Positions 1 through 26,218 of a stretch of 32,863 nucleotides of DNA are shown one piece after another. Made by a program: the position numbers and the translations under genes. The stretch comes from a bacterium (GTDB taxonomy: Bacteria > Actinomycetota > Acidimicrobiia > Spongiisociales > UBA5794), in contig JAAELU010000567.1 in assembly GCA_024226255.1 (NCBI GenBank), positions 1-32,863 of the forward strand, read 5' to 3'. The notes beneath the pieces were generated by a model. The model did not search any database, had not been told where the DNA came from, and saw nothing but the letters and a program-made list of their open reading frames with translations. Position 1 is the first letter of the stretch. Each line of letters begins with the position of its first letter.

Positions 1-1731
1 CTCGGTTGTAGTCGACGCCCACATTGAACGTGAACCTGAGCCGAGCGAAACGGTCATCCAGTCCGAGACCACTTCATCGCTACCCGAATTCCAGTTAGCC
101 AGCACGTAGCCGTCTGCTCCGTAGGTCCCAACCCAATCACCCTGGACGCCGGGACCGAAGTCGGGAGGCACTGATACCTCCGCGGACGTGTTCGCCGTAG
201 CGCCTTCGTTGTCCGTGACAGTTAGAACTACTTCAAAGGTTCCTTCGGTGAGGTAGGTGTGGCTCGGGTTTTGCTGCGTGCTTGTGGAGCTGTCTCCGAA
301 GTCCCACGACCAGTTCACGATGGACCCATCCGGTTCCCAAGTCGTGTCGACGAAATCGCATGTGAGAAGGTCGCAGCTCGAGTCAAAGGCGGCGATGGGT
401 GGGATATTCCCGCCGCCGGTGCCCACCGCAACCGCAACCTCAACGGCGCGTTTGGCATTGACCAACGGTTCTCCGACGCCGTCTGGATCGCCAGGCCACA
501 CTTCGCCGGAACATGTCGCCCCGCCCGGATTGACCGAACCAGATGGGCACTCACCGCTGAGCTGCAGCAGCGCCATCAAGGTGGGAGCGGCGAGTGTCGG
601 CTCGGCCGACAACATGGCCGCAACCACACCGGAGACGTGGGGAGCAGCCATCGAAGTACCGCTCTTCTCGCCGTAGCCTCCGCCGGGCACCGTTGACAGG
701 ATCGGATCGCCTGGCGCGATCACGTCGACACTTGGTCCGTAGTTGCTGAAGTACGCGAATTCGTCATCGCAGAAGATGAAGATGAGAAGACATCCACCGA
801 GGCCGCCTGGAACGCCATCGAGGTCGGTCAAAGCGGACACCGATATGACCTCATCGAACACGGCAGGAATAAACTGTTCGGCCGAGCCGGAATTGTTGCC
901 CGCGGCAGCCACTGCGATCACTCCGAGATCGGTCAGGTCACAGATCGCCTCGTGGATCGCGTCAGAAGTGACGCTGTCGTCACACGTTGAATCCGAACCC
1001 GCCTCGCCGAAGCTCATGTTGGCCACGGTTGGGACCCCGTCAGCCGCCAAGCCCGCCACGTAATTGATACCGCACAGAACCTGAGCTGTGGTCGCGTTGC
1101 CGGTTGCATCGAACGCTTTGACCGCGACCAGGCTCGCCTCAGGGGCAACTCCAACCACACCTGTTCCGTTGAGGGATGCGCCGACGATTCCGGCCACGTG
1201 GGTACCGTGGCTGTTGTCGTCGTCTGCGCTGGCACCTGGTGTGACACAGTTGTAGCCAGCTGCGGCGTCGATGTTCGCCACGAGATCAGGGTGGTCGAGG
1301 TCGATGCCCGAATCGATTACCGCAACGCGGATGCCGGCACCGCGAAATGTACCGCCGGCGAGGTCGTGCAGCTCATCGCCGGAGATTCTGGCGACGCCAT
1401 TCTGAACCTCCTGCAGCCGGAATAACTGGTCTGGTGCCACCGAGCTGACGTGAGGATTCTTCCGGAGAGCGGCGGCCGCCTGGGACGATCCAACGAACGA
1501 GAAGCCTCCGAGGACGTTCTCGAAGACGAATCCAGCTTTGCCGCCAACGCCACGCGCCAATGCGTGAGATACCTGGCCGGGTTGGGCACCCTCATTGAGG
1601 GTGACGATCCAATTCGTCTGCTCTGCGGTCGCCTCGGCCGGCTCGAAGGGCTCGAGTGGGTCGGCTGCGGCAGGGACCACCATCGTGAACACCAAGAGAC
1701 CAGCAAGAAACGTGACGATCGACGTCCGCAT
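1..1731 (-). CDS. Subtilisin-like serine protease (S8) with I9 propeptide and PKD domain, partial
   Basis: Not in the ORF track because it runs off the window; I translated the minus strand and found an open frame of 577 codons with no stop. Residues 1-23 form a signal peptide ending in PAAA. About 38-107 resembles an I9 inhibitor propeptide (starts NWIVTLNEGA). The S8 catalytic domain follows with Asp at VIDSGID (~140), His at HGTHVAG (~175), oxyanion Asn in AAAGNNSG (~279) and Ser at GTSMAAPHVSG (~360), so the triad is complete. A PKD-type fold follows (about 430-540; WSWDFGDSSTS, then HTYLTEGTFEVVLTV). It is thus a secreted, self-processed endopeptidase. The ATG at 1731 has a GAGGGG ribosome site just upstream. 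The C-terminus, where more binding domains or an anchor could lie, is outside the window. Family assignment is secure; substrate is unknown. Confidence 0.93.
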   Translation of the reverse strand, partial: MRTSIVTFLAGLLVFTMVVPAAADPLEPFEPAEATAEQTNWIVTLNEGAQPGQVSHALARGVGGKAGFVFENVLGGFSFVGSSQAAAALRKNPHVSSVAPDQLFRLQEVQNGVARISGDELHDLAGGTFRGAGIRVAVIDSGIDLDHPDLVANIDAAAGYNCVTPGASADDDNSHGTHVAGIVGASLNGTGVVGVAPEASLVAVKAFDATGNATTAQVLCGINYVAGLAADGVPTVANMSFGEAGSDSTCDDSVTSDAIHEAICDLTDLGVIAVAAAGNNSGSAEQFIPAVFDEVISVSALTDLDGVPGGLGGCLLIFIFCDDEFAYFSNYGPSVDVIAPGDPILSTVPGGGYGEKSGTSMAAPHVSGVVAAMLSAEPTLAAPTLMALLQLSGECPSGSVNPGGATCSGEVWPGDPDGVGEPLVNAKRAVEVAVAVGTGGGNIPPIAAFDSSCDLLTCDFVDTTWEPDGSIVNWSWDFGDSSTSTQQNPSHTYLTEGTFEVVLTVTDNEGATANTSAEVSVPPDFGPGVQGDWVGTYGADGYVLANWNSGSDEVVSDWMTVSLGSGSRSMWASTTTE

Positions 1732-1901
1732 ATTCCCCTCCGCGCCTGCGGCAACTGCGCGAATCGGTATGACCCGCGACTGCAAAGAGTGGCCGTACAA
1801 GCACCTCCAAGACTACCGACGGCATCAGCAGCTGGTCAATGGGTCGTCCGCCCCTGAATCTCGCCTGAGCAGGCGGGTGGTCGAGCTCTTCTCGACGCGT
1901 C

Positions 1902-1927
1902 GTGGAGGCCGGCGAACCGGCCCCCAC
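1902..1927 (-). terminator. Hairpin, possible terminator of the molybdoenzyme-rhodanese operon
   Basis: A perfect GGCCGG/CCGGCC stem closes a CGAA tetraloop, and an outer GTGG/CCAC stem extends it after one mismatch. It lies about 25 bp past the stop of the tandem-rhodanese gene and before the protease gene on the same strand. There is no U-tract, so it is either a non-canonical terminator or a palindromic site. Confidence 0.35.
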
Positions 1928-1951
1928 GTCCATGCGTCGACCGACGCGGAT

Positions 1952-2881
1952 TCACTGTGTCTCGATGGGCTCTCCAGCGCCGGTCCACGCCAGGTAGCTG
2001 CCCGAGAAGCCTCGGACATTGTCGAATCCCAGAATGTGGAAAACTGGGACTGATAGGGCTACACGCCAGCCGGACTTGCAGTACGCAATTACCTGCGTAT
2101 CCGTCGGGATGTCAGCAACGTTGTTGCCGATTTCGCGCAGCGTGATGTTGGTTGCCGGGGCAATAAAGCCCTCGGCGTATTCGGCAGGCGTGCGGACGTC
2201 GATGACTGCGGATCCGGCTGCGATAGCGGCCTTGACTGTTTCAACGTCACCGGCTGTCAGCCAGCCCTCGGGGAGGGTGGTGAGGAAGTCGTTGACGGCC
2301 GTGTACATCTCAGGTGCCATTTCGGGAACCTCGTAGGCCGCGGCGGCGACTGTGCCGGTCGAGATCTCCTCTCCAGCGGCAGTCCAGCCGTTCCATCCCG
2401 GGGGATAGGCGAGGACGTTGTCGTATCCGAGCATGCGCAGCGAGGATGTGGCCAAACCGGCTCGCCAGCCCGACTTGCAGTACACAAACACTTGGGTGTC
2501 GGCCGGAATCATCTCCAGGTTCTCACCGAGCGTTCGCAGCGGAATGTTGATCGCATCCAGGATGTGACCCTCGGCATACTCGCCGGTCTCGCGGACGTCG
2601 ATCACCAGGGCATTGCTGGCGGCTACGGCGTCCTTGAATGCGGTGGTATCTCCAACAGCCATGTAGCCCTCAGGGATCGTTGCCGCGTAGTCGGCGACGG
2701 CGGCGACGAGGTCGAAGGTAGCGACTGTGGTTGGGGCTGCAGTCGTTGCCGGAGCCTCGGTTGTCGTTGCCAGCGGCGCGTCAGCAGTTGTATCCGAAGC
2801 GTCATCGCCACCGCACGAGGCGGCCACGAGGGCGAGAGCAACCAAAAGGCCGGTCACGGTCTTGCGACGGAGGATTTTCAT
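1952..2881 (-). CDS. Tandem-rhodanese lipoprotein
   Basis: 309 aa. The N-terminus has a basic start, a hydrophobic segment and a lipobox (LVAASCGG), so it is an exported lipoprotein anchored at the outer face of the membrane. A Thr/Ala/Pro-rich linker (~25-53) leads to two rhodanese domains (about 70-185 and 200-309). Each has the LVIDVRE or AVIDVRT start and an intact active-site Cys in the same loop, YCKSGWR. Both domains therefore look catalytic, which is unusual since two-domain rhodaneses often keep only one active Cys. The AAAGGAAA ribosome site sits before the ATG. It is the last gene of the molybdoenzyme operon, 60 bp after the cytochrome b. That context suggests handling of sulfane sulfur made or used by the enzyme outside the cell; this role is inference. 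Confidence 0.9.
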   Translation of the reverse strand: MKILRRKTVTGLLVALALVAASCGGDDASDTTADAPLATTTEAPATTAAPTTVATFDLVAAVADYAATIPEGYMAVGDTTAFKDAVAASNALVIDVRETGEYAEGHILDAINIPLRTLGENLEMIPADTQVFVYCKSGWRAGLATSSLRMLGYDNVLAYPPGWNGWTAAGEEISTGTVAAAAYEVPEMAPEMYTAVNDFLTTLPEGWLTAGDVETVKAAIAAGSAVIDVRTPAEYAEGFIAPATNITLREIGNNVADIPTDTQVIAYCKSGWRVALSVPVFHILGFDNVRGFSGSYLAWTGAGEPIETQ

Positions 2882-2941
2882 TGGTTTCCTTTCTTACGGT
2901 GAGCGCCGAAACTGGTTCTGACGCCGAAGTCTGTGTAGGTC

Positions 2942-3625
2942 CTAGGTTTGTGGGGCCGGTTGTTCTTCTTTTTCGATTTGGGGCTCCTCCTCGGCGTGCT
3001 CGATTTCCTCCACCCACTTGGAGTGTTCGAGCCGCGCCTCGTCCTCATCCACGTATCCGGTCGTCATGGACGACATTGCCTTGTAGACGTACGTGAAATA
3101 GAGGTGGCCGACCAGCAGGAGGGTCAGTGCCAGCATCGAGAGGTCGTGTATCACTGCGGTCCAAGCCAGTCCGGTGGCCCCCAACGTGGGCTTGATGAAC
3201 CACATAGCCAACCCGGACAACACGATCGACAGCGAGATGACGATCACTGCCCCGTGGTGGAGCTTCTGGCCTGCATTGAGGCGACCCTGGGGCGGCATCT
3301 CGGCGGCATGGCCCATTGCATAGCGGTACATGTGCTTGAACCAGGAGATGTCGTCGCGGTCGTACCTGAACGTCTCGCGGAGGAGCTCTTTGGCCCCTTC
3401 GCGATCTGCCAGCAGGTATGCGACCGGGACAAGCATGAATGCGATCGCTCCGACCCGGTGGAGCCATCGCGAGTTACCGCCCACAGCCAAGAACGACAAC
3501 GGACCCCACAGCAGGACCATCCCCGTCAGTAGCAGCAGAATGAACGAACTCGCCAGAAGGGCATGAACAAATCGTTGGTTGCGTCGGTAGCGCAGGATCT
3601 TGTGGTCGTGGTCATGTTTCGCCAT
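2942..3625 (-). CDS. FdnI-type cytochrome b subunit of a molybdopterin oxidoreductase
   Basis: 227 aa with four predicted membrane segments: FVHALLASSFILLLLTGMVL, a second after WLHRVGAIAF, a third after QKLHHGAVIVISLSIVLSG, and IHDLSMLALTLLLVGHLYF. The histidines in these segments (FVH, WLH, LHH, GHLYF) match the heme b and quinone-site pattern of formate dehydrogenase gamma subunits and the related NrfD-free cytochromes of sulfur enzymes. The C-terminal tail is very acidic. It would pass electrons between the quinone pool and the periplasmic Fe-S subunit. It starts one base after the ferredoxin stop (TGACATG), so it is translationally coupled. Family is secure; direction of electron flow is not known. 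Confidence 0.88.
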   Translation of the reverse strand: MAKHDHDHKILRYRRNQRFVHALLASSFILLLLTGMVLLWGPLSFLAVGGNSRWLHRVGAIAFMLVPVAYLLADREGAKELLRETFRYDRDDISWFKHMYRYAMGHAAEMPPQGRLNAGQKLHHGAVIVISLSIVLSGLAMWFIKPTLGATGLAWTAVIHDLSMLALTLLLVGHLYFTYVYKAMSSMTTGYVDEDEARLEHSKWVEEIEHAEEEPQIEKEEQPAPQT

Positions 3626-3626
3626 G

Positions 3627-4409
3627 TCAGCCCTCCTCTGATTCGGTCTGGCGGGTCGCCGCTCCCGCGATGGCTACCTCGCCGGCTTCGATGCTGCGTA
3701 GCTCCTGCATGTGGATTCGGCGAGCGATTACCGCAGCAACTCCCGCGGCCACCGCGGTAGCCGCGGTCAGGCCAAGTGATGCCGGTTGCACGATGCCGGT
3801 CCAAAGGCCGGCGGCGATCGGGGGGTCGACGTCGAGCGGCAGGTCCAACTTCTCCGGATCGTCCGGGGTAACGACTATCACGCCAAGGCCCCCAGCCTGG
3901 TCTTCGCCATAGACCTGGGCGTTCGGATAGCGAGTCTTGAGTGCAGCCGCCCGCTGCTTGGCTTCGGCGAGGATCTCGGTGCGTTCGCCAAACTCGAGTG
4001 CCCGGCTGGGGCAGGTGGTAACGCACCACGGTTCGCCGCCGGCCTTGGTGGCGGCAGCACACCCGTCGCATTTGCTCGAGAGACCATCGACCATTCTGGG
4101 TACGCCGTATGGGCACGACTCGACGCAGTAGCTGCATCCGCTACATGCGTCCCGATCGAGTCGGGTCATCCCATCTTCTTTGAAGAGTGCGCCAGTGGGA
4201 CAGACCGCAACGCACGCCGCGTCGGCGCAGTGATAGCAGCGGTGGTTTCCGAAACCACCTTCGAGAATTGGGAAGGTTCCTCTGGTCTGTTCGATCAGCT
4301 GGATGTACTGGGTGCCTTCGTTGAGCTCGTTGCCGACTTTGCAGGCGGCGACGCAGGCTTGGCAGCCGATACAGCGTCCCAGGTCCAACAGGAATGCTAT
4401 TTCAGTCAT
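3627..4409 (-). CDS. Four-cluster ferredoxin subunit with C-terminal membrane anchor
   Basis: 260 aa from the ATG at 4409, chosen because AGGAGG lies 6 nt upstream and it follows the previous stop by one base; the longer track start would run into the upstream gene. Four Cys groups are visible: CIGCQACVAAC, CYHCADAACVAVC, CSGCSYCVESC and CDGCAAATKAGGEPWCVTTC, fitting four [4Fe-4S] clusters as in FdnH/PhsB/PsrB-type subunits. Near the C-terminus (about 212-240) a hydrophobic stretch (GLTAATAVAAGVAAVIA) can act as a single transmembrane anchor, as in FdnH. It wires the molybdoenzyme to the cytochrome b. There is no signal of its own, so export would piggyback on the Tat signal of the large subunit. 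Confidence 0.9.
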   Translation of the reverse strand: MTEIAFLLDLGRCIGCQACVAACKVGNELNEGTQYIQLIEQTRGTFPILEGGFGNHRCYHCADAACVAVCPTGALFKEDGMTRLDRDACSGCSYCVESCPYGVPRMVDGLSSKCDGCAAATKAGGEPWCVTTCPSRALEFGERTEILAEAKQRAAALKTRYPNAQVYGEDQAGGLGVIVVTPDDPEKLDLPLDVDPPIAAGLWTGIVQPASLGLTAATAVAAGVAAVIARRIHMQELRSIEAGEVAIAGAATRQTESEEG

Positions 4410-4410
4410 G

Positions 4411-6705
4411 TCAGACCTCCTTGCGCAATCGAACGAAGTTGACACGCATCCCGGCGCCCCCGCTGATTGGGTCGAGCGCGTACCTGGTCTGGAGCTTCGT
4501 GTCGCTGGCCCCGACGCCGTGGGCTCTGGTCAAGCCGGGGGAATCCTGGCCGAAGCCATGGACCAGGAAGACTGCGTCATCCCGGATGCGTTGGGTGGCC
4601 TTGACCTTGATCGGTCCGCTGGTCGCTCCGTCTTGGTTCTCGAGCCAGACCTCATCGCCGGAGCTGAAACCAGCCGCCGATGCGGCGTCCTCGTTCACCC
4701 AGACCTCGTTCTCGGAATACAGCTCGTTGAGGAGCGGCGTGTTCTGAGTCTTGGCGAAGGTGTGCACCGGGTGGCGGCCGTACAGGAGTCGGAAGAAGCC
4801 GTCGGGCGGTTCCTCAACCGGCTCGAATACCGGCATGGCGTCATGTCCGGCCTCTGCGAGCTGTTCTGAGTAGAACTCGATCTTCTCCGACGGCGTGTGG
4901 AACGGTGACGCTCCCTCGAAGTCCTCGAGGTAGGGCTTTCCGGCCTGGATGATGACTCCGCCACTGTCACGCATCTTCTCCAAGCTCGAGCCGACGGAGC
5001 GCAGCCGAGTGTTGAGGTATTCCTCTGCCGTCTCCCACCTGAAGAAGGAGTCGAGACCGACCCTGAGGCCGAGCTCACGGGCCATCCACCATCCTGGCTT
5101 CGTGTCATAGAGCGGCTCGATAGCCGGCTCTCGCATCGCGATATATGGGGTCTTGTGGGCGACGGCGAACAGCTCGTCATAACGTTCGAGGTAGGTCGCT
5201 TCGGGCAATACGACGTCCGCCCAGGCAACGTGTTCCTGGGGGAGCACATCGATGGCTACCACCAGGTCGAGCGCCTTGAGGGCCTCGATCGTGCGGGGCA
5301 CGTTCGGCACCGAGTTGAGCAGATTCGTCCCATAGACGATCAACCCCTTGATCGGATATGGATCACCGCTGATCATCGGGTCGATCAGCTCCTGCATTGC
5401 AGTGGAGCCCCGCAGGAATGTGTCTCTCGCCCCATCGGCGCGAGCCTTGCCCGTCGGCCCCAAGGGGAGCTCGTCGCTCTCTTCTCCCGGTTCGGCGGAG
5501 CAACCGCCGGAGCTGCCGGCCACTGCAAATGGCGGATGGGGATATGCCTCTAGGTAGGGAGATTTACTGAAGTACATGCCGCCGTGACGCCCGTAGGCTC
5601 CCAGCAGCGCGTTGATCAGATAGGTGGCCCGCATCCGCTGCGTGTCATTGCCGTACCAGACCACGTGGCGACCGGGCATGATCACCGAGCGAGGTTTGCT
5701 GGCGGCCATAACACGGGCAGTGGTGCGAATTTGATCGGCGGACAGGTCGGTTATCGGGGCTGCCCACTCCGGTGTGAATTCGGCCACATGGTCGGCCAGG
5801 GCATCAAAACCTTCGGTCCACTCGGCCACGTACTCGGCGTCGGAGAGACCTTCCGTGATGATGACATTCATCCACGCCAGCAGCAGGGCGGTATCGGTTC
5901 CCGGCTTGATCGGGAGCCAGTGGTCTGCCTTGGCGGCAACGCTGGAGAACCGGGGGTCGACAACGATTACCGAGGCGCCCCTACTCCACGCCGCCGAGAA
6001 GTCTTGCATCACCGTGTTGCGCGTGTCCTCGCCGATGTGGCTGCCGATGAGGGTCAAACACTCGAGCTCGTCCCAGTCGACCGGCTCGTGGCCGCCCACA
6101 CCTAGTCCGTACGTGAGGATGGCGGCTTCCTCGCGCGGTGACAGGCACAGCGAGGAGGACGGTTTGGCTGCATTGGGCGTGCCGAACGCCTGCGCAAAAT
6201 AGTCGGTGAACCAGAACTCTCCCGAGGTGTGGCCGAAGACTGCCAGTGACTCGGGGCCGTGGGTGTCCTTGAGGGTGTTGATCTTGGAGGCGGTGTAGTC
6301 AAGGGCTTCTTCCCAAGTCACTTCGCGGAATTTGCCCTCGCCGCGTTCTCCTGTCCGAATCATCGGAGATTGCAGCCGGTCGGGGTCATAGGCGAAGGAG
6401 ACGCCACCTTGTCCACGGGCACACAGCATGCCGCGGCTCTTCGGGTCGGCCTGGTTGCCATCGATCTTCTGGACTACGCCATCGACGGATTGCACGACCA
6501 CGCCACAGCGCCAGGGGCACATGTCGCAGTAGTTGTAGGTCGTCTTGATCTCACCACGGCGATACCAGGGCGCGGTTCCGTTGGCGAGCGCCAGGCCGTT
6601 CCGGGCCGGGTTGGAAGGTCGCAATCCAACGGCGGCCAGTGTGCCCGCGGCCGTGCCTGATTTCAGGAACGTGCGACGGGTGATTTTGAGCTGGGCGCGA
6701 GCCAT
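4411..6705 (-). CDS. Tat-exported molybdopterin oxidoreductase, thiosulfate/polysulfide reductase-like
   Basis: 764 aa from ATG 6705; the track start 96 bp upstream is rejected because the Tat signal follows this ATG directly (TRRTFLKSG, then an Ala/Gly-rich hydrophobic run). A [4Fe-4S] site follows (CDMCPWRC, then GMLCARG). The likely Mo ligand is Cys in SSLCLSPREE. The residue after it is not His, so it does not fit formate dehydrogenase, where [U/C]-H is conserved; PhsA/PsrA-like sulfur reductases or oxidases fit better. MGD-binding blocks (VVDPRFS, KGLIVYGTNLLNS) and a C-terminal dinucleotide-binding domain (EVWLENQDGA, FLVHGFG) are present. It heads a four-gene operon with ferredoxin, cytochrome b and a rhodanese lipoprotein. 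The substrate (thiosulfate, polysulfide, tetrathionate or another) cannot be settled from sequence. Confidence 0.85.
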   Translation of the reverse strand: MARAQLKITRRTFLKSGTAAGTLAAVGLRPSNPARNGLALANGTAPWYRRGEIKTTYNYCDMCPWRCGVVVQSVDGVVQKIDGNQADPKSRGMLCARGQGGVSFAYDPDRLQSPMIRTGERGEGKFREVTWEEALDYTASKINTLKDTHGPESLAVFGHTSGEFWFTDYFAQAFGTPNAAKPSSSLCLSPREEAAILTYGLGVGGHEPVDWDELECLTLIGSHIGEDTRNTVMQDFSAAWSRGASVIVVDPRFSSVAAKADHWLPIKPGTDTALLLAWMNVIITEGLSDAEYVAEWTEGFDALADHVAEFTPEWAAPITDLSADQIRTTARVMAASKPRSVIMPGRHVVWYGNDTQRMRATYLINALLGAYGRHGGMYFSKSPYLEAYPHPPFAVAGSSGGCSAEPGEESDELPLGPTGKARADGARDTFLRGSTAMQELIDPMISGDPYPIKGLIVYGTNLLNSVPNVPRTIEALKALDLVVAIDVLPQEHVAWADVVLPEATYLERYDELFAVAHKTPYIAMREPAIEPLYDTKPGWWMARELGLRVGLDSFFRWETAEEYLNTRLRSVGSSLEKMRDSGGVIIQAGKPYLEDFEGASPFHTPSEKIEFYSEQLAEAGHDAMPVFEPVEEPPDGFFRLLYGRHPVHTFAKTQNTPLLNELYSENEVWVNEDAASAAGFSSGDEVWLENQDGATSGPIKVKATQRIRDDAVFLVHGFGQDSPGLTRAHGVGASDTKLQTRYALDPISGGAGMRVNFVRLRKEV

Positions 6706-16824: not shown

Positions 16825-18588
16825 TTGTCTTCATCCGTCCCGAGCGATCTCGATATCGCACAGGCAGCAACCGTTCAACCGATCGCCGATATTGCGGCTT
16901 CGATCGGTATCGAGTCTGACGAACTGATTCCTTTTGGCTCGACCAAAGCGAAGGTCCACCTCGACATCTTGAAACGTATCAGAGCCAACCCGACCGGCAA
17001 GTACGTTGACGTGACGGCGATCACCCCGACGCCACTGGGGGAGGGCAAGACCACAACGACAGTTGGCCTCGTGCAGGGACTTGGCCTTCTTGGCAAGAAG
17101 GCGATTGCTGCCATTCGGCAACCATCGATGGGACCCACCTTCGGGATCAAGGGTGGTGCCGCCGGCGGCGGCTACAGCCAGGTTGTTCCGATGGAGGAAT
17201 TCAACCTGCACCTGACCGGTGACATCCACGCCATCAGCGTCGCCCACAACTTGGTGGCAGCCGCGATCGATGCCCGGTGGTACCACGAGAGCCGCCGCAA
17301 CGATGAGGAGTTGGCCGCTCTCGGTCTCGAGCGCATCGGCATCGACCCCAACCGCATCTCGTGGCGTCGCGTGCTCGACGTCAATGACCGTGCCCTGCGC
17401 AACACCATCGTCGGCCTGGGTGGCTCTGCCGATGGCATCCCTCGTGAAACCGGTTTTGACATCACCGTAGCCAGCGAGCTCATGGCGATTCTCGCCCTTG
17501 TCGATGGCACTGACTACGCGAGCGCCCTCAAGGATCTGCGGGCGCGGTGCGCCCGGGTTGTTGTCGGATCAACGTCGAAGGGCAAGTCGATCACCCTCGA
17601 GGATCTCGGCGTCGCCGGCGCTGTCACAGTGCTCTTGAAGGACGCTCTGCACCCAACACTCATGCAGACTCTCGAGGGTCAGGCCACCATGATCCACGCC
17701 GGGCCGTTCGCCAATATCGCTCACGGCAATTCGTCGATTCTGGCGGATCGGGTGGCGCTGCAACTCGGCGACTACGTCGTCACCGAGTCGGGTTTCGGGG
17801 CGGACATGGGCATGGAGAAATTCTTCAACATCAAGTGCCGGGTCTCTGGGCTGGTGCCGGACGCTGTCGTTCTGGTTGCAACGGTCCGGGCGCTCAAGAC
17901 ACACGGCGGCGGCCCCAAGGTGGTGCCCGGGCGTCCGCTCGATGAGGCCTATACATCCGAGAACCTCGAACTCTTGGAGGCCGGCCTCTCCAACCTCGCG
18001 GCCCACATCGACAATGCGAAGAAGTTCGGAATCACGGTCGTCGTTGCGGTCAACTCGTTCTACACCGATACCGAGGCAGAGATCGAGCTCGTCAAAAAGG
18101 CGGCAATCGAGGCCGGGGCTGCTTCGGCGGTGACTTCCGACCACTGGGCCGATGGGGGCCAGGGTGCACTCGAGCTGGCGAAGGCAGTGGTTGCGGCCTG
18201 CGACGAGCCTTCCGACTTCCACTTCCTCTATCCAGATTCAGCTGTCATCAAAGAGAAGATCGAGACGATCGCCCGGGACATCTACGGTGCCGGCGCCGTC
18301 GAGTACTCACCGTTGGCCAGTCGCCAGATTGCTGAGTTCGAGTCGGCAGGGTTGGGTGATCTTCCTATTTGTATGGCAAAGACCCATCTCTCGATGAGCC
18401 ATGACCCGACCCTCAAGGGCGCCCCGTCGGGATTCACGGTGCCGGTGCGCGAAGTCAGGGCCTCTGCAGGGGCTGGGTTCATCTACCCGCTGCTCGGTGA
18501 GATGCGCACTATGCCGGGCCTCGGTACGAGGCCGGCCTACCTGAATGTCGACATCGACGAGGACGGGAACATTGTCGGCCTCTTCTAG
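16825..18588 (+). CDS. fhs: Formate-tetrahydrofolate ligase
   Basis: 587 aa, slightly longer than the usual ~560. It joins formate to THF with ATP to give 10-formyl-THF, or runs in reverse, in the cytosol. The P-loop is TPTPLGEGKTTTTVGL (~67-82), followed by the signature RQPSMGPTFGIKGGAAGGGY and EFNLHLTGDIHA. The later block VATVRALKTHGGG and the end PGLGTRPAYLNVDIDEDGNIVGLF are also conserved. Start is a TTG with AGAGGGG upstream. The next gene on the strand is formate dehydrogenase after 74 bp, so formate made or used here is linked to NAD-dependent oxidation. Confidence 0.97.
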   Translation: MSSSVPSDLDIAQAATVQPIADIAASIGIESDELIPFGSTKAKVHLDILKRIRANPTGKYVDVTAITPTPLGEGKTTTTVGLVQGLGLLGKKAIAAIRQPSMGPTFGIKGGAAGGGYSQVVPMEEFNLHLTGDIHAISVAHNLVAAAIDARWYHESRRNDEELAALGLERIGIDPNRISWRRVLDVNDRALRNTIVGLGGSADGIPRETGFDITVASELMAILALVDGTDYASALKDLRARCARVVVGSTSKGKSITLEDLGVAGAVTVLLKDALHPTLMQTLEGQATMIHAGPFANIAHGNSSILADRVALQLGDYVVTESGFGADMGMEKFFNIKCRVSGLVPDAVVLVATVRALKTHGGGPKVVPGRPLDEAYTSENLELLEAGLSNLAAHIDNAKKFGITVVVAVNSFYTDTEAEIELVKKAAIEAGAASAVTSDHWADGGQGALELAKAVVAACDEPSDFHFLYPDSAVIKEKIETIARDIYGAGAVEYSPLASRQIAEFESAGLGDLPICMAKTHLSMSHDPTLKGAPSGFTVPVREVRASAGAGFIYPLLGEMRTMPGLGTRPAYLNVDIDEDGNIVGLF

Positions 18589-18662: not shown

Positions 18663-20558
18663 ATGGCACGCAACAAGCAACGGCTAACTACTCCGCTGGT
18701 GCGGACAGAGGCCGGGTTGGAACCAGCCACCTGGGATGAAGCCTTGGCCAAGGCGGCCGCCGGCTTCGAGGCGATCCGCGCCAGGCTCGGAGGAGATGGT
18801 TTCGCCGCTTTCAGTTGCTCGAAGGCTACGAACGAGACGAACTACATGGCTCAGAAGTTCGCTCGGGTGGTCATGGGCTCGAACAACGTCGATTCGTGTA
18901 ACCGCACCTGACACGCTCCCTCCGTCACCGGTCTGGTGGCAGTGCTCGGAGCGGGGGGCGGGACCTCCTCATACGAAGAGATCGAGTCCACAGAGTTGAT
19001 AATTCTGTGGGGATCGAACCCGCGCGAGGCGCACCCGATCTTTTTCCATCACCTCATGAAGGGTGTTCGCAACGGAGCCGAGATGTACACGATCGATCCG
19101 CGGCGCACTACGTCGGCACAATGGGCTGACACCTGGATGGGGCTCAACGTTGGATCGGACATTGTCTTGGCCAACGCGGTCGGACGCGAAATCATCGCCC
19201 AGGACCTGCACAACAAGGAATTCATCTCTCATTCGACAAGTGGATTCGAGACGTACGCCGCAAGGGTTCAGCCATACACCCTTGAGTATGCGAGAGAGAT
19301 CACGGGAATCCCGGCCGAAGCGATCCGGCAACTGGCCTATGACTACGCCACGGCCAAGACCGCTCAACTGTGCTGGGTGCTCGGAATCACCGAGCACCAC
19401 AACGGGACTGACAACGTCCTCGCCCTCATCGATTTGGCTTTGCTGACGGGGCACGTCGGGCGTTTCGGCTCCGGCCTGGTTCCGATCCGTGGGCAAAACA
19501 ACGTCCAGGGTGGCGGCGATATGGGTGGCCTGCCCAACAAGTACCCGGGCTATCAGGACGTCGAGGACCCGGCATCGCGCTGCAAGTTCGAAGAAGCGTG
19601 GGGTTGCGAGCTGAACCCTGTCGACGGCCGCCACATTTCGCTGATGTTCGACGCCATGGAAGAAGGAACGATCCGCGGCCTCTACGTGGTTGGAGAGAAT
19701 CCAGCGCAGTCTGAAGCTGACGCCGACCGAATTCGCAAGCTGCTTGCCAACCTCGAATTCATGGTGGCGCAGGACATCTTTCTGACCAAGACTGCGGCAA
19801 TGGCCGACGTTGTCTTCCCCGCCGCGGTCGGATGGGCCGAATCTGAGGGGACTGCCACCAGCTCCGATCGTCGGGTGCAGCGAATCCGCGCCGCGCTACA
19901 ACCGCCCGGCGAGGCCAAACACGACCACGAGATCATTGCGATGCTCGCCAATGCAATGGGACACGATTGGGGCTCACCATCCGCGTTCGAGATCTGGGAA
20001 GAGCTGCGCTCGCTGTCGCCGATGCACTACGGCATGACTTACGAGCGCCTCGAAGAGCTCGGCGGAATTCAATGGCCATGTCCTGATCTCGATCATCCGG
20101 GGACGCCGTTTCTCCACTCATGGTTGTGGGAGGACACGCTGCCCAGGGAGCCCGCACCCTTCAAGCCTGTGGACTATGCACCTCCCATCGACCCGCTCTC
20201 CGAGGACTATCCGATCCGTCTCACCACGGGCCGTCGGCTCGACTCGTACAACACCGGAGTCCAGTCCGGTGGATATCAGTCGCCGATCCGTCACGGTGGT
20301 GTGTTGGACATGGCGCCGGCCGATGCGGCCCGCCTCAGCGTCGGCGAGGGTGAGGTCGTCCGGATTGCGTCCCGGCGTGCCAGCATCGAGGCCCCGGTGC
20401 GCTTCGATTCGGCTCTGCGGCCCGGGCTGGCCTTCATGTCTGTCCATCATCCCGACGACGCCGACGTGAACCGGCTCACCATCGACGCCTGGGATCCGCA
20501 GGCTGGAACCGCCGAGTTCAAGGCGACCGCCATTCGTGTAGACAAGATCACGGTGTAG
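18663..20558 (+). CDS. fdhA: Formate dehydrogenase catalytic subunit, selenocysteine-containing, lacking the N-terminal Fe-S part
   Basis: 631 aa read through an in-frame TGA at 18909-18911; the track splits it into two ORFs of the same frame. Residue 83 is thus selenocysteine in CNRTUHAPSVTGL, the FDH active-site signature (U/C then His). A hairpin with GGUCU loop follows. The start has GGAGGTGAT, a near-perfect anti-16S match. The protein opens at RLTTPLVR, which in normal FDH large subunits comes just after the Fe4S4 domain; that domain is encoded two genes downstream. Other conserved parts: WGSNPREAHPIFFHH, LCWVLGITEHHNG, RGQNNVQGGGDMGGLPNKYPGYQ, and the C-terminal MGD domain (RLTTGRRLDSYNTG, VHHPDDADVNRLT). 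It oxidises formate to CO2, with electrons passed to the NuoEF-like subunit. Confidence 0.95.
18924..18940 (+). promoter_or_regulatory. Bacterial SECIS element of fdhA
   Basis: GTCACC and GGTGGC form a 6-bp stem (one G-U) with loop GGTCT, starting 12 nt after the UGA. The stem-loop position and a GGUCU loop match the known E. coli fdhF type, where SelB binds the loop. Supports true selenocysteine insertion. Confidence 0.8.
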
Positions 20559-20565
20559 GAGCGGT

Positions 20566-22353
20566 ATGGATCTTCGCCTCATGGACGCCACAGCCACAGC
20601 GGATGAGATAGCCGCAGTTGATGTGGTGCTCGGACCTCCCGAGTCGGGATGGACCGGCGGCGTGATGACCGCGGCCGATACCCGTTTGGCGCAGGGTGGC
20701 TATCACGCCGCGGCGGCTCAACGACACCTGTTGCTGCCGGCTTTGCTGCAGGTCCAGTCGGAGATTGGCTGGATCAGTGAAGGCGCCATGAATTATGTGT
20801 GTGTCCGCCTCCAGGTCCCCCCGGCGGAGGCACACGGCGTTGCCACCTTCTACGCCCTGTTGTCCACAACCAAGCGTCCAGACCGTGTTGCCCATGTGTG
20901 CGACGATGTCGGCTGTCGCGATCGCGGCGGTGGGGCAATTCTCGAGGCGTTCGGTGATCGTGACGATGTCGTGCCTAGCCCGTGCCTTGGCCAGTGTGAT
21001 CGGGCACCGGCAGTCTTCGTGCAGCGGGCCGGCGAATCCGATGTCGTGCTTGGCAATTCCGAGCCGATGGAGGTGGAACTCGTTCTCGGCGGCGGCTCTG
21101 CCCCACCGCCTCCCGTGACCGCTCCCCAGGTAGGCGATGGCAGCCTCCGTTTGTTACGTCGAGTCGGTGTTGTCGATCCGGCCGGCCTTGATTCGTACCG
21201 AAGTCACGGCGGCTACGAGGCATTGATTCAGGCTATCGGCATGAGTCCCGGCGAGGTGATCGCCGAGGTCAAGGTTTCCAATATCCGGGGCCGCGGCGGC
21301 GCCGCGTTTCCGATGGGAATCAAATGGGAGGGTGTCGCCGCCGCCCCCGAGTCTGAGCGCTACCTGATCTGTAACGCCGACGAGTCGGAGCCCGGCACGT
21401 TCAAGGATCGAGTGTTGATGGAAGGTGATCCTTTCGCGCTCGTGGAGTCAATGACAATCGCCGGGTACGCGGTGGGCGCCACGAAGGGATACATCTACGT
21501 GCGCTCCGAGTATCCAGTGGCCCGGCAACGCCTCGAGGGTGCGATAGCGGCTGCTCGCGATGCCGGCCTGCTGGGCTCCGACGTGGCCGGCTCCGGCTTT
21601 GCCTTCGACCTCGAGGTCCGCAGCGGGGCGGGCGCTTACATATGTGGCGAAGAGACGGCTCTGATGAATTCGATCGAGGGCTACCGGGGCGAGCCCCGCA
21701 ACAAGCCACCCTTCCCGACTCAGGTAGGCCTCTTTGGCAAGCCGACCGTGATCAACAACGTCGAGACTCTGATGAATGTGCCCGACATCATTGCCGACGG
21801 TGGTGCTGCCTTCGCCGCTCTGGGCACCGAGCAGTCGACTGGCACGAAGCTCTTCTGCCTCGCCGGTGACATCGCTGCGCCCGGCGTGTATGAGGTGCCG
21901 TTTGGGGTGACCCTTGGTGACGTCATCGAATTGGCCGGAGGCGTCACCGGTTCGGGCGTCCTCAAGGCGGTTCTGCTGGGAGGTGCCGCCGGGGTGTTCG
22001 TCGGAACTGAACATCTCGACATGCCGCTCACTCTCGAGGATGCGCGGTCTCGCAACGCGACTCTGGGTTCCGGCGTTGTGATGGTCTACGACGACACGAC
22101 AGATTTTCGAGCCATTCTGCGCCGTGTCGCCGAGTTCTTCCGCGATGAGTCTTGCGGTCAATGTGTGCCGTGCCGTGTCGGCACGGTGCGCCAGGAAGAG
22201 CTTCTGGCCCGCCATCTGGGCGGGGAATCGCTCGACGCCGACCTGCTGGCCGAGTTAGCCCAGGTGATGGGCGATGCCTCGATCTGCGGTCTCGGCCACA
22301 CCGCGTCCGGTGCCATACAGAGTGCTCTGCAACTCGGATTGGTCGGAGACTGA
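20566..22353 (+). CDS. NuoE-NuoF fusion, NADH-binding subunit of formate dehydrogenase
   Basis: 595 aa. About 35-180 is a NuoE-like thioredoxin fold with a [2Fe-2S] site (HVCDDVGC, then PCLGQC). A proline-rich linker leads to a NuoF-like part (about 200-595): the FMN/NADH site VSNIRGRGGAAFPMGIKW, NADESEPGTFKDR, GAGAYICGEETALMNSIEG, and the [4Fe-4S] motif ESCGQCVPCRVGT with its fourth Cys in ASICGLG. Such fusions occur in cytoplasmic NAD-dependent formate dehydrogenases (FdsB-like) and hydrogenases. It hands electrons to NAD. The gene begins 7 bp after the fdhA stop, and the next gene starts one base after its own stop, so the three form one operon. The start at 20581 is an alternative. Confidence 0.93.
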   Translation: MDLRLMDATATADEIAAVDVVLGPPESGWTGGVMTAADTRLAQGGYHAAAAQRHLLLPALLQVQSEIGWISEGAMNYVCVRLQVPPAEAHGVATFYALLSTTKRPDRVAHVCDDVGCRDRGGGAILEAFGDRDDVVPSPCLGQCDRAPAVFVQRAGESDVVLGNSEPMEVELVLGGGSAPPPPVTAPQVGDGSLRLLRRVGVVDPAGLDSYRSHGGYEALIQAIGMSPGEVIAEVKVSNIRGRGGAAFPMGIKWEGVAAAPESERYLICNADESEPGTFKDRVLMEGDPFALVESMTIAGYAVGATKGYIYVRSEYPVARQRLEGAIAAARDAGLLGSDVAGSGFAFDLEVRSGAGAYICGEETALMNSIEGYRGEPRNKPPFPTQVGLFGKPTVINNVETLMNVPDIIADGGAAFAALGTEQSTGTKLFCLAGDIAAPGVYEVPFGVTLGDVIELAGGVTGSGVLKAVLLGGAAGVFVGTEHLDMPLTLEDARSRNATLGSGVVMVYDDTTDFRAILRRVAEFFRDESCGQCVPCRVGTVRQEELLARHLGGESLDADLLAELAQVMGDASICGLGHTASGAIQSALQLGLVGD

Positions 22354-22354
22354 T

Positions 22355-23308
22355 GTGAACGAAGTCGCTCTCAACATCGACGGTGTTGCCGCAAGCGTCC
22401 CGGAGGGCTCGACGATCCTCGAGGCGTGTCGCTCGGTCGACAAGCCGCAGCCCACGCTCTGCTACTTGGAGAACCTGACGCCGGTCAATGCCTGCCGGGT
22501 CTGCGTCGTCGAGGTGGAGAACAATCGGCTTCTGGTGCCGTCGTGCTCGCGGCCCGTTGAAGAGGGCATGGTGGTGAATACAGACACTGAGCGAGTGCGT
22601 CATTCCCGCAAGATGGTCTTCGAATTCGTGGCGTCGTCCGTCCAGATGGATCTGGTCGACGAGGAGACCAGGGAGTGGATGGACTACTACGGGGCCGATC
22701 CGTCCCGATACGGCAACCCCGCCGCTTCGTCGCTTGACCGCGACAGCCGACATCCCGGTCACCATCCGATCCCGGATGGTTCGGAAGCTGCCAACGTGCA
22801 TCAGCCGATCAAGGTCGACAACGATCTCTACGTTCGGGACTATTCGCGGTGCATCCTCTGCTACAAGTGCGTCGAAGCGTGTGGTGAGGACGCCCAGAAC
22901 TCATTCGCCATTGCCGTCTCGGGTCGCGGGTTTGATGCCCGGATCTCAACGGAGTTCGACACCCCACTCACCAATTCGGCTTGTGTCTTCTGCGGCAACT
23001 GCATTGGAGTATGTCCAACGGGAGCGTTGATGTTCCGCAGCGAATACGAGATGCGCAAAGCCGAGATCTGGGATGAGGATGAGCAGTCGGTGACTCGCAC
23101 GATCTGTAGCTACTGCGCGGTCGGCTGCAATCTCGATCTCCACGTCCAGGACAACCGCATCGTCAAAGTGACCTCGCCGATTGACCATTCGATCACCGAT
23201 GGCCACCTGTGCATCAAGGGCCGCTTCGGGTACGAATATGTGCAGGACCTTGGTGAGATGGCCAGCACCCCTATCGACATCGTGCTTGCCCGCGCCAGAA
23301 CGACCTGA
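22355..23308 (+). CDS. Formate dehydrogenase Fe-S subunit carrying the displaced Fe4S4 domain (NuoG-like N-terminal half)
   Basis: 317 aa from GTG 22355, one base after the NuoEF stop; the longer track start overlaps that gene by 80 bp and is rejected. Order of domains: [2Fe-2S] ferredoxin (CRSVDKPQPTLCYLEN, CRVC, SCSRP), a NuoG-type spacer with His residues, two [4Fe-4S] clusters (CILCYKCVEAC and CVFCGNCIGVCPTG), then the molybdopterin-oxidoreductase Fe4S4 domain (CSYCAVGC, then GHLCIKGRFGYEYV) near the C-terminus. It ends just where FdhA begins in family members. In FdsA-type enzymes all of this and the catalytic part are one ~950-residue chain; here 317 plus 631 residues give the same total. 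So the large subunit is split and the halves are reversed in gene order. Confidence 0.92.
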   Translation: MNEVALNIDGVAASVPEGSTILEACRSVDKPQPTLCYLENLTPVNACRVCVVEVENNRLLVPSCSRPVEEGMVVNTDTERVRHSRKMVFEFVASSVQMDLVDEETREWMDYYGADPSRYGNPAASSLDRDSRHPGHHPIPDGSEAANVHQPIKVDNDLYVRDYSRCILCYKCVEACGEDAQNSFAIAVSGRGFDARISTEFDTPLTNSACVFCGNCIGVCPTGALMFRSEYEMRKAEIWDEDEQSVTRTICSYCAVGCNLDLHVQDNRIVKVTSPIDHSITDGHLCIKGRFGYEYVQDLGEMASTPIDIVLARARTT

Positions 23309-23319
23309 GGCGAGCCGTG

Positions 23320-23379
23320 ATGAAGGAACTACTGGGACTAGGCCGTTCGCCACGGGTTCGCCCTTCACCGTTCCTCTAG
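23320..23379 (+). other. In-frame 5' segment of the aminomethyltransferase, ended by TAG
   Basis: ATG 23320 to TAG 23377 codes for 19 residues (MKELLGLGRSPRVRPSPFL) in the same frame as the next gene, with GAGGCGAG upstream as a ribosome site. The sequence fits the N-terminus of GcvT/DmdA-like proteins, whose start is R-SPF-x-A then GA-x-FTVYNHM. TAG replaces what would be one residue in this stretch. So either a nonsense change (for instance from GAG), a recoded stop, or an assembly error. Confidence 0.65.
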
Positions 23380-23385
23380 GCAACC

Positions 23386-24450
23386 ATGCCCGCTGGAGCC
23401 CAAACGTTCACCGTCTACAACCACATGCTGCTGCCGATGCGGTACACGTCTTCGCTCGACGAGTATGAGGCGCTGATCACCGGTGTCACGATTTGGGACG
23501 TTGGAGCAGAGCGCCAGGTGGAGATCCAGGGCCCCGATGCAGCCGCTCTGACCCAGTACCTGTGCACCCGAGACGTGTCCCGAATCCGACCCGGCCAGGC
23601 TTGCTACACATTCGTGTGCAATCACGCCGGTGGCATTCTCAATGACCCTGTGCTGCTCAAACTGGCCGAGGACCACTACTGGCTGTCGCTGGCCGATAGC
23701 GACGTGCTCCTGTGGGCCCAGGCGATTGCGGCAGAACGCGGCATGGATGTCGCGGTGCGCGAACCAGACGTCTCGCCACTCCAGGTACAGGGTCCCAAGT
23801 CCGGCGATCTCATCGGTGACGTGTTCGGGCCGGACACCCGCGATCAGAAGTACTACAACTTCGTCGAGACCGAACTCGACGGTGTGCCGATGGTGGTCGC
23901 GCGCACTGGCTGGAGCGGTGAATTCGGATATGAGGTGTTTCTACGAGACGGCCCCAAGGGAACCTGGTTGTGGGATCGGTTATTCGCCGCCGGAGAGAGT
24001 CATGGTGTCAAGCCCGCCAGCCCTAACCAGATCCGGCGGATCGAGGGAGGCATCCTCTCGTACGGCACTGACATGGACCAGACGGTGACGCCGCTGGAAC
24101 TCGGTTTCGGAAGGTTCGTTCAGTTCGACGGCGCTGAAGACTTCGTCGGCAAAGCGGCTCTACTCACCCAAGCTGCTCGCGGAATCGATCGTCGGCTCAC
24201 CGGGATCCGCATCGGCGGTGACCCGGTTCTGTCGAATAGCGCGCACATGGACGTGCAGCTCGATGGCCGATCCGTCGCGAGGCTCACTTCGATGGTCTAT
24301 TCCCCGCGCTTCGACGCCAACCTGGGATTCGCCTTCGTCGAATTGGGCTGTGCCGCGCCGGGCTGCGAACTCGAGATCATCACGTCAAATGGTGGACTTC
24401 TAGGTATCGCCGAGGCGATTCCCTTTGTGGAGCCGACGAAGTCGATCTAG
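23386..24450 (+). CDS. Aminomethyltransferase of the GcvT/DmdA family
   Basis: 354 aa from ATG 23386, which has only a weak ribosome site. Family blocks: FTVYNHMLLPMRY, VTIWDVGAERQVEIQGPDA, LTQYLCTRDVS, GGILNDPVLLKL, LQVQGPKS, the THF-site region ARTGWSGEFGYEVFL, and RRIEGGILSYGTDMDQTVTPLELG. These occur in glycine cleavage T-proteins and, more closely by the last block, in demethylases like DMSP demethylase that move a methyl group to THF. Upstream in frame lies a 19-codon piece that looks like the true N-terminus, ended by TAG (23377). If translation starts here, the protein lacks that part. The gene is the last of the FDH operon (11 bp after the previous stop to ATG 23320), so its methyl product may feed formate oxidation. 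Confidence 0.85.
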   Translation: MPAGAQTFTVYNHMLLPMRYTSSLDEYEALITGVTIWDVGAERQVEIQGPDAAALTQYLCTRDVSRIRPGQACYTFVCNHAGGILNDPVLLKLAEDHYWLSLADSDVLLWAQAIAAERGMDVAVREPDVSPLQVQGPKSGDLIGDVFGPDTRDQKYYNFVETELDGVPMVVARTGWSGEFGYEVFLRDGPKGTWLWDRLFAAGESHGVKPASPNQIRRIEGGILSYGTDMDQTVTPLELGFGRFVQFDGAEDFVGKAALLTQAARGIDRRLTGIRIGGDPVLSNSAHMDVQLDGRSVARLTSMVYSPRFDANLGFAFVELGCAAPGCELEIITSNGGLLGIAEAIPFVEPTKSI

Positions 24451-24743: not shown

Positions 24744-25319
24744 GTGAAGATCACCGAAGTAATCGAAGTCAGCCGACCCATCGATCAGGTGTGGTCGCTT
24801 TTTCAGGATGTACCCGATCTGGCCACCTGCCTCCCGGGAGCCGAGCTCACCGAGGACAAGGGCGACGGCCAGTACGCCGGCAATGTGTCAGTGAAGTTGG
24901 GCCCGATGACGGCGATGTTCGAGGGGCAGGCGACGGTCACGGCTGACGTCGCGGCCAAAGCCGGGAAAGTCACCGGCAAGGGTGTCGATAAGCGTGGCGG
25001 CAGTCAGGCCCAGATGAAGGTCGACTACGCGCTACAAGAGATGGATGGCGGCACCCGAGTGACCGTCGACGCCGATGTGATGCTCGCCGGGGCCGCCGCC
25101 CAATTCGGTCGCACCGGGCTCATTCAGGAGATGTCCAAGCGAATCATCGGTGAGTTCGTCGAGTGTGTCGAGGCGAAGCTGGCGGCGACGACTGTCGAGG
25201 AAGCCGCCGAAATAACGGCAGGTGAGGTCAAGGGTTTCTCACTCTTCCTCTCCAGCTTGTGGGCAACGGTCCTCGGATTCTTCAAGCGGCTGTTCGGAGC
25301 CAAGGACGGCGGCTCTTAG
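24744..25319 (+). CDS. SRPBCC (CoxG-like) protein
   Basis: 191 aa from GTG 24744, with GGGGGAG upstream; the longer track start has no ribosome site. The first ~150 residues fit the CoxG family: SRPIDQVWSLFQDVPDLATCLPGAEL, GQYAGNVSVKLGPMTAMFEGQATV and a helix near FGRTGLIQEMSKRIIGEFV. A C-terminal hydrophobic/amphipathic segment (FLSSLWATVLGFFKRLF) could bind the membrane, as in CoxG, which tethers carbon monoxide dehydrogenase. No CoxMSL genes are in the window, so its partner is unknown; a role with another molybdenum enzyme is only a guess. Its stop meets the converging gene. Confidence 0.88.
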   Translation: MKITEVIEVSRPIDQVWSLFQDVPDLATCLPGAELTEDKGDGQYAGNVSVKLGPMTAMFEGQATVTADVAAKAGKVTGKGVDKRGGSQAQMKVDYALQEMDGGTRVTVDADVMLAGAAAQFGRTGLIQEMSKRIIGEFVECVEAKLAATTVEEAAEITAGEVKGFSLFLSSLWATVLGFFKRLFGAKDGGS

Positions 25320-25576
25320 TTGTTCTGCTGCGGGTTGAGCAGCTCGCGGTAGGCCTCGAGCGCCTTGCGGTGGCCTTTGGCTCCTGACCCAACCACGCCG
25401 CCGGTGCGCGCCTTCTTCACTGCGTCCTCGAGCGTGTCCAACAGTCCGTAGATGTCCGATTCGGGACCGGCATCCCTGAGCGCATGGAAAGCGATGTGGA
25501 TGGTCGCGATCGTTTCGCTGACCTTCTCGAATTCCTTGTTCACCTTGGCTCTGGCTTTGTCTAGTTCTTCACTCAT
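25316..25576 (-). CDS. Small helical protein, unknown function
   Basis: 86 aa from ATG 25576; the long track start is rejected because it covers the DUF3039 gene on the other strand. The product begins MSEELDKARAKV, is mostly charged and helical, and has no membrane segment. GACACT lies 6 nt before the ATG on the minus strand and could be a leaderless -10. It overlaps the CoxG-like stop by a few bases. I do not recognise the family. Codon use is like its neighbours, so it is likely a real gene. Confidence 0.65.
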   Translation of the reverse strand: MSEELDKARAKVNKEFEKVSETIATIHIAFHALRDAGPESDIYGLLDTLEDAVKKARTGGVVGSGAKGHRKALEAYRELLNPQQNN

Positions 25577-25582
25577 GGGTGC

Positions 25583-25588
25583 AGTGTC
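25583..25588 (-). promoter_or_regulatory. Candidate -10 box of the small helical protein gene
   Basis: On the minus strand GACACT ends 6 nt before the ATG at 25576; weaker match to the pattern than the others. Confidence 0.25.
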
Positions 25589-25621
25589 GCCGTTCTGGCG
25601 GATGCTCGCCACCAGCAGTGG

Positions 25622-25627
25622 CACAAT
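25622..25627 (+). promoter_or_regulatory. Candidate -10 box of the DUF3039 gene
   Basis: CACAAT, 6 nt before the GTG at 25634. No ribosome site is seen, so a leaderless start is likely. Confidence 0.35.
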
Positions 25628-25633
25628 GGGGCT

Positions 25634-25864
25634 GTGACTGAGACATGGACTGAAGAGCTGACCGACACGACGACGGGTGACGGTGACCACGATCGCTTCG
25701 CTCACTACGTGCGCAAAGCCGACATCGTGAGGTCCAATGTCGAAGGCGTACCGGTGCAAGCACTGTGCGGCAAGGTGTGGATTCCCAATCGCGATCCCGA
25801 CCGTTACCCGGTGTGTCCGACATGCAAAGAGATCCATTCCAAGCTGTTCGGTTCTGGCGAATAG
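25634..25864 (+). CDS. DUF3039 family protein
   Basis: 76 aa, GTG start. The conserved part is HYVRKADIVRSNVEGVPVQALCGKVWIP followed by RDPDRYPVCPTCKEIHSKL, which is the DUF3039 pattern common in actinobacteria. The Cys set (ALCGK, CPTC) may bind a zinc ion. Function is not known. It is a good marker that the host is an actinobacterium. It is divergent from the small helical protein gene, and the two promoters must lie in the 57 bp between them. Confidence 0.9.
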   Translation: MTETWTEELTDTTTGDGDHDRFAHYVRKADIVRSNVEGVPVQALCGKVWIPNRDPDRYPVCPTCKEIHSKLFGSGE

Positions 25865-25902
25865 CTCCACGTGGCCGGGTCAGGGCAGCTTCTTGGAAGC
25901 CC

Positions 25903-25915: not shown

Positions 25916-26209
25916 ATGCAGGTAAAGGTCACCGAGGCGGCGTTGGAGCTGGCTCGCAAGAAGGGCGGCATGGTCGCTCTCGATTTCATCAAGCCGGTCG
26001 GCTGAGGCAAGCCGGCGGAGGTGTCGGTCGACACCAACACGGACGGCAAGAACCTCAACCCGTACGAGCGGATGCCGTACGAGGGCGTTGAGTTCCTCTT
26101 GCCACGCAATCTGATGCGATGGGCTGCCGACGTAACGGTCGACGCGAGACGATCGTTGCTCGGCACCCGTTTCATCGTGCAAGCCGGGCACGCTCACAAC
26201 CCCACCTGA
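25916..26209 (+). CDS. HesB-like (CC/Se motif) small selenoprotein with in-frame UGA
   Basis: 97 aa read through TGA at 26003-26005, residue 30. The track shows only the C-terminal part as an ORF from 26021 in the same frame. N-terminal part: VKVTEAALELARKKGGMVALDF, a HesB/IscA-like start; then IKPVGUGKPAEVSV with selenocysteine at the place of the first Cys of HesB proteins. After it come YEGVEFLLPRNLMRWAADVTVDAR and a hydrophobic end. It fits small proteins of the HesB-like (CC/Se motif) type known as selenoproteins in some bacteria. Here U is followed by Gly rather than Cys, and the C-terminal Cys pair of IscA is absent. A GGUC-loop hairpin lies 14 nt after the UGA. Function is unknown; a redox or metal role is inferred. 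Confidence 0.8.
26020..26035 (+). promoter_or_regulatory. Candidate SECIS element of the HesB-like selenoprotein
   Basis: GGTGTC and GACACC form a perfect 6-bp stem with loop GGTC, starting 14 nt after the UGA; the loop is 20 nt downstream, against 18 in fdhA. The two hairpins share stem length and loop core, which supports recoding of both UGA codons by the same SelB. Confidence 0.7.
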
Positions 26210-26218
26210 CAACACGGA

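Follow-up and report, generated by a model that had tools for sequence, protein, structure and literature searches.

An in-frame TAG in a GcvT/DmdA-like methyltransferase gene beside a selenocysteine formate dehydrogenase operon probably stems from a very recent nonsense mutation or from an error in the consensus

Among proteins of solved structure the closest relative by sequence of the methyltransferase described here is the DMSP demethylase DmdA of P. ubique (3tfh, E 2.6e-72), and SAR11 likewise carries aminomethyltransferases of unknown substrate (PMC3160333). Stop codons inside genes may be recoded, and in the actinobacterium Blastococcus the reading of UAG as selenocysteine by a tRNA-Sec with a CUA anticodon has been reported (PMC5330540). 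Ordinary nonsense mutations and errors in a draft consensus appear as a single in-frame stop in one genome between intact flanks. The same picture is found in the stretch of 32,863 nucleotides analysed here (the window), but with a possible restart codon that lies unusually close, two codons downstream of the stop. The interrupted gene shares the SPF/TPF ... YNHM start with DmdA; unlike DmdA in its usual setting it adjoins a formate dehydrogenase operon, with no DMSP genes beside it. Both Pfam domains of the superfamily are found above their cut-offs (GCV_T, PF01571, 168.3 bits with a cut-off of 25.6; GCV_T_C, PF08669, 34.8 bits with a cut-off of 25.9), whereas the NCBIfam cut-offs are missed, for the DmdA equivalog NF009133 with 361 against 410 bits for the 354-aa part, for the glycine cleavage GcvT equivalog TIGR00528 with 151.7 against 235.85 bits and for a further GcvT model with 187 against 300 bits. 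Judged by these profiles the gene is a GcvT/DmdA-superfamily methyltransferase below the DmdA and GcvT NCBIfam cut-offs. When the read-through form was modelled with AlphaFold2 from an alignment of 15 sequences (mean pLDDT 89), 3tfh was the closest solved structure by fold as well, with a TM of 0.93 at 35% identity.

The features of the locus are collected in Table 1. From the formate-THF ligase to the methyltransferase the genes follow each other as they do in the closest relative, the sister genome (G001), and dehydrogenase genes are also located near the methyltransferase homologue in G054 and G067. In this setting the enzyme may demethylate a substrate onto THF, after which oxidation of the C1 unit would yield formate and CO2. 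The alpha subunit of the formate dehydrogenase appears to be split, as its molybdopterin part and its Fer2/Fer4/Molybdop_Fe4S4 part flank the NuoE-NuoF-like fusion. The UGA of fdhA lies within the motif SCNRT-UGA-HAPSV, conserved in 4/4 genomes; it is a genuine Sec codon and the enzyme a selenocysteine formate dehydrogenase. The sequence CACC-GGUCU-GGUG found past this UGA resembles the apex of a bacterial SECIS.

Table 1. Features of the methyltransferase locus and its surroundings, with positions in the window.
Feature	Position	Strand	Remarks
Formate-THF ligase	16825-18588		upstream of methyltransferase gene
Formate dehydrogenase catalytic part (fdhA)	18663-20558	+	Sec-UGA 18909-18911, genuine recoded stop, same operon
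NuoE-NuoF-like fusion	20566-22353	+	intact
Fe-S subunit of formate dehydrogenase complex	22274-23308	+	Fer2_4, Fer4, Molybdop_Fe4S4; intact
N-terminal coding remnant, MKELLGLGRSPRVRPSPFL	23320-23376	+	conserved RSPRxRxSPF; third-position-biased divergence from the sister genome
In-frame TAG	23377-23379	+	family position usually Glu/Asp; this genome only, sense codon in 40/40 homologues
AGG-CAACC-ATG	23378-23388	+	weak Shine-Dalgarno-like AGG and possible restart codon ATG 23386
GcvT/DmdA-like folate-dependent methyltransferase	23386-24450	+	354-aa open frame; Pfam domains, DmdA relative 3tfh, normal conservation
Small IscA/HesB-like gene	25916-26218	+	UGAs 26003-26005 and 26207-26209, both conserved; SECIS-like hairpins, Cys homologues

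A small IscA/HesB-like gene further downstream contains two in-frame UGA codons. The first is found in the context PVG-U-GKPAEVSVDTNT and is kept in 14/14 matching genomes of the same order; the second, close to the C-terminus (NPT-U-QHG-stop), is also present in all 14 of these members and followed by a short conserved tail (QHG, RH, SH). Hairpins with mostly a GGUC loop follow both codons, although only three pairs of the second hairpin were recovered when it was folded automatically from the alignment. Among members of the compared set (L134-L157) from elsewhere in the phylum, Cys occupies the first UGA position in L153, L154, L155 and L157 and the second in L149 and L150. When the protein is modelled from its single sequence (mean pLDDT 71), Foldseek finds a resemblance to IscA/SufA (E 1.4e-4). 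The nearest named family, NF041239 ('CC/Se motif'), is hit only below its cut-off (15.8 vs 40 bits); a 2026 review gives it one Sec (PMC13188914). The product is probably an A-type protein with two selenocysteines.

The initial annotation had described a TAG inside the N-terminus of the methyltransferase gene, and this codon is indeed located between ATG 23320 and ATG 23386 and in frame with both. The frame opened by ATG 23320, for which GTG 23317 is a second candidate start, spans 23320-24450 and reads MKELLGLGRSPRVRPSPFL, the TAG, the residues A-T and the Met of ATG 23386, which is followed by 353 more residues and the terminal stop at 24448-24450. The homologue from the sister species aligns in frame with the upstream piece (LSELFGIVRSPRLRASPFYEAT) and is identical at 11 of the 19 residues preceding the TAG, the identity over the whole gene being 70%. 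Other genomes of the order also align in frame upstream of the TAG (for example VEEDLRLIRSPRVRVSPYFEAA in G096), and RSPRVR-SPF aligns to homologues from other families of the order. As the first 22 codons differ from those of the sister genome at 7, 3 and 15 sites on codon positions 1, 2 and 3, respectively, the upstream segment appears to be kept as protein, and this third-position-biased divergence indicates that it was coding until very recently. On these alignments the 19 codons preceding the TAG are genuine coding sequence, and the TAG therefore interrupts the gene and is not the end of an unrelated leader.

In order to compare the site itself we used 40 homologues aligning through the TAG position, with each species represented by one reference genome. 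A stop is found in none of them. They carry Glu (13), Asp (12), Pro (8), Ala (5), Asn (1) or Ser (1), and with an acidic residue in 25 of the 40 the position is often acidic, as had been proposed from the sequence. Its proposed origin from GAG by one base change is plausible, since Glu is encoded more often by GAG than by GAA in the window (194 vs 85), but the closest relative uses GAA, not GAG, at this position and the origin is therefore not demonstrated. Close homologues starting at the same methionine (MPAGA) had been named as one result that would speak against a nonsense change; a Met at this position occurs in none of the 40 and is unique to this genome, and the reading stands. Taken together, the alignment supports a nonsense change at a conserved, often acidic position. 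Internal stops that seemed to be shared by the relatives G005, G012, G060 and G073 turned out after re-alignment to be normal C-terminal stops.

The remaining part of the gene shows no sign of decay. Its identity to the three nearest order-level outgroups is 61.0, 60.7 and 58.8%, compared to 58.8, 58.5 and 57.7% for the sister protein, and at columns otherwise invariant it has five private changes, the sister two. By these sequence measures the rate of evolution of the gene body does not exceed that of the sister gene and no decay is visible, from which it follows that the TAG event is very recent, harmless to function or absent from the organism. With neither acceleration nor further stops in the gene, it does not behave as an established pseudogene. 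A second copy of the locus, which would indicate a mixture of strains, was not detected in the same genome, the next match being only 32% identical. An apparent frameshift in 25316-25870 relative to the sister genome was rejected as the artefact of an over-extended reverse-strand frame across a conserved small plus-strand gene, with no lesion. This small gene (about 25640-25900, ETWTEELTDTTTGDGDHDRFAHYVRKADIVRSNVEGVPVQALCGKVWIPNRDPDRYPVCPTCKEIHSKLFGSGE) is hidden by the longer reverse-strand ORF in mechanical lists.

The AlphaFold2 model gives an impression of what would be lost with a start at ATG 23386. Residues 1-8 are of low confidence, a short helix is formed by residues 19-22 and the first core strand by residues 29-33. 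According to this model translation from residue 23 onwards would leave the core in place but remove the lead-in, and with it R14 and P17, two residues that do not vary across the 15 aligned sequences. As to the concern that loss of the first 22 residues could affect the folate domain, the core is probably not lost, and the predicted loss amounts to eight disordered residues and a short ordered lead-in with two invariant residues.

The TAG most probably arose by a very recent single-nucleotide nonsense change, as a real allele or as an error in the assembled consensus, at a position that is usually Glu or Asp in a gene otherwise intact and under ordinary constraint; the TAG would not be a programmed signal. 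A recoded UAG (pyrrolysine, UAG-selenocysteine or a suppressor tRNA) or readthrough by design might be expected from an operon that recodes UGA as Sec and from the Blastococcus precedent, but we consider it highly improbable. The search for pylT and pylS suggested in the initial annotation was run on the genome. The PylS C-terminal model reached 29 bits with a cut-off of 178, a loose level at which it also matches 13 of 14 control genomes, and the PylS N-terminal domain gave no match. Among the tRNAs found there is none with the CUA anticodon of a pyrrolysine or suppressor tRNA. Both absences carry much weight without being absolute, as the genome is 90.7% complete. The tRNA-Sec on contig C698 has the anticodon UCA, which reads UGA, and not CUA; no hairpin follows the TAG, where the region folds worse than shuffled sequences (z +1.83), and none of the homologues carries a Cys at this position. 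Moreover, TAG is the terminal stop of 10 of the 25 complete genes in the window. Pyrrolysine, a suppressor tRNA and UAG-selenocysteine were rejected on these PylS, anticodon, homologue-residue and folding results, and the alternative of recoding or readthrough raised from the sequence is not supported. We also give hardly any credence to the UAG as a programmed switch setting the ratio of full-length and shortened methyltransferase by low-level readthrough or restart. A natural start at ATG 23386 with the upstream segment as a leader would agree with a 354-aa frame that is complete by Pfam; it is nevertheless very unlikely and largely refuted by the missing Met in all 40 homologues, all of which continue upstream in frame, and by the conservation of the upstream segment as protein.

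Between the two forms of the preferred explanation, a very recent nonsense change, the choice is close to even. An error in the consensus or assembly, with a sense codon at 23377 and a full-length enzyme in the population, has in our view a little less than an even chance. It would agree with the metagenome-style nature of the draft, which has 778 contigs at 90.7% completeness and 4.9% contamination, with the recorded k-mer coverage of only 4.57 for the sister contig, with codons on both sides of the TAG that are without decay and with the confinement of the event to a single genome. On the other hand, alignment of the window's syntenic genes to the sister genome revealed no other nonsense codon besides the conserved Sec UGAs. 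A real nonsense allele with coupled reinitiation at ATG 23386 and an at least partly functional 354-aa enzyme is a possibility we hold tentatively, clearly short of even. It is favoured by an ATG that is unique to this genome with AGG five bases upstream, by the core fold beginning after residue 23 and by the normal constraint on the gene body, but the lost segment holds the two invariant residues and the undecayed upstream codons allow at most a very recent change. If the base is real, ribosomes would end at TAG 23377 and some of them might restart at ATG 23386, only 6 nt past the stop. Reinitiation there, already suggested in the initial annotation, is plausible from this spacing and the nearby AGG, and the resulting enzyme without its first 22 residues might show normal or reduced folate-dependent demethylase activity; lost function, reduced function or no effect are all possible outcomes of a real base. 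That a unique ATG lies two codons past a unique TAG could also mean that the truncation is tolerated or compensated and that the TAG is real and older than assumed, but this hint is weak because ATG accounts for about 2.5% of codons.

On the 31-kb contig C775 of the genome (G000), a cluster of 20 tRNA genes, all on the same strand, occupies about 4.3 kb (122-4420, L118). Many of them duplicate tRNAs found elsewhere in the genome, and the cluster may represent a tRNA array of a mobile element or contamination from binning.

In summary the TAG is an ordinary lesion, one nonsense codon in one draft genome, and within the same window it fails every conservation test that is passed by the Sec-UGA codons. 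An in-frame stop that occurs in one draft genome and is absent from all relatives should be treated with caution and not be taken as evidence for recoding, even if it is located in an operon with a true recoded stop.
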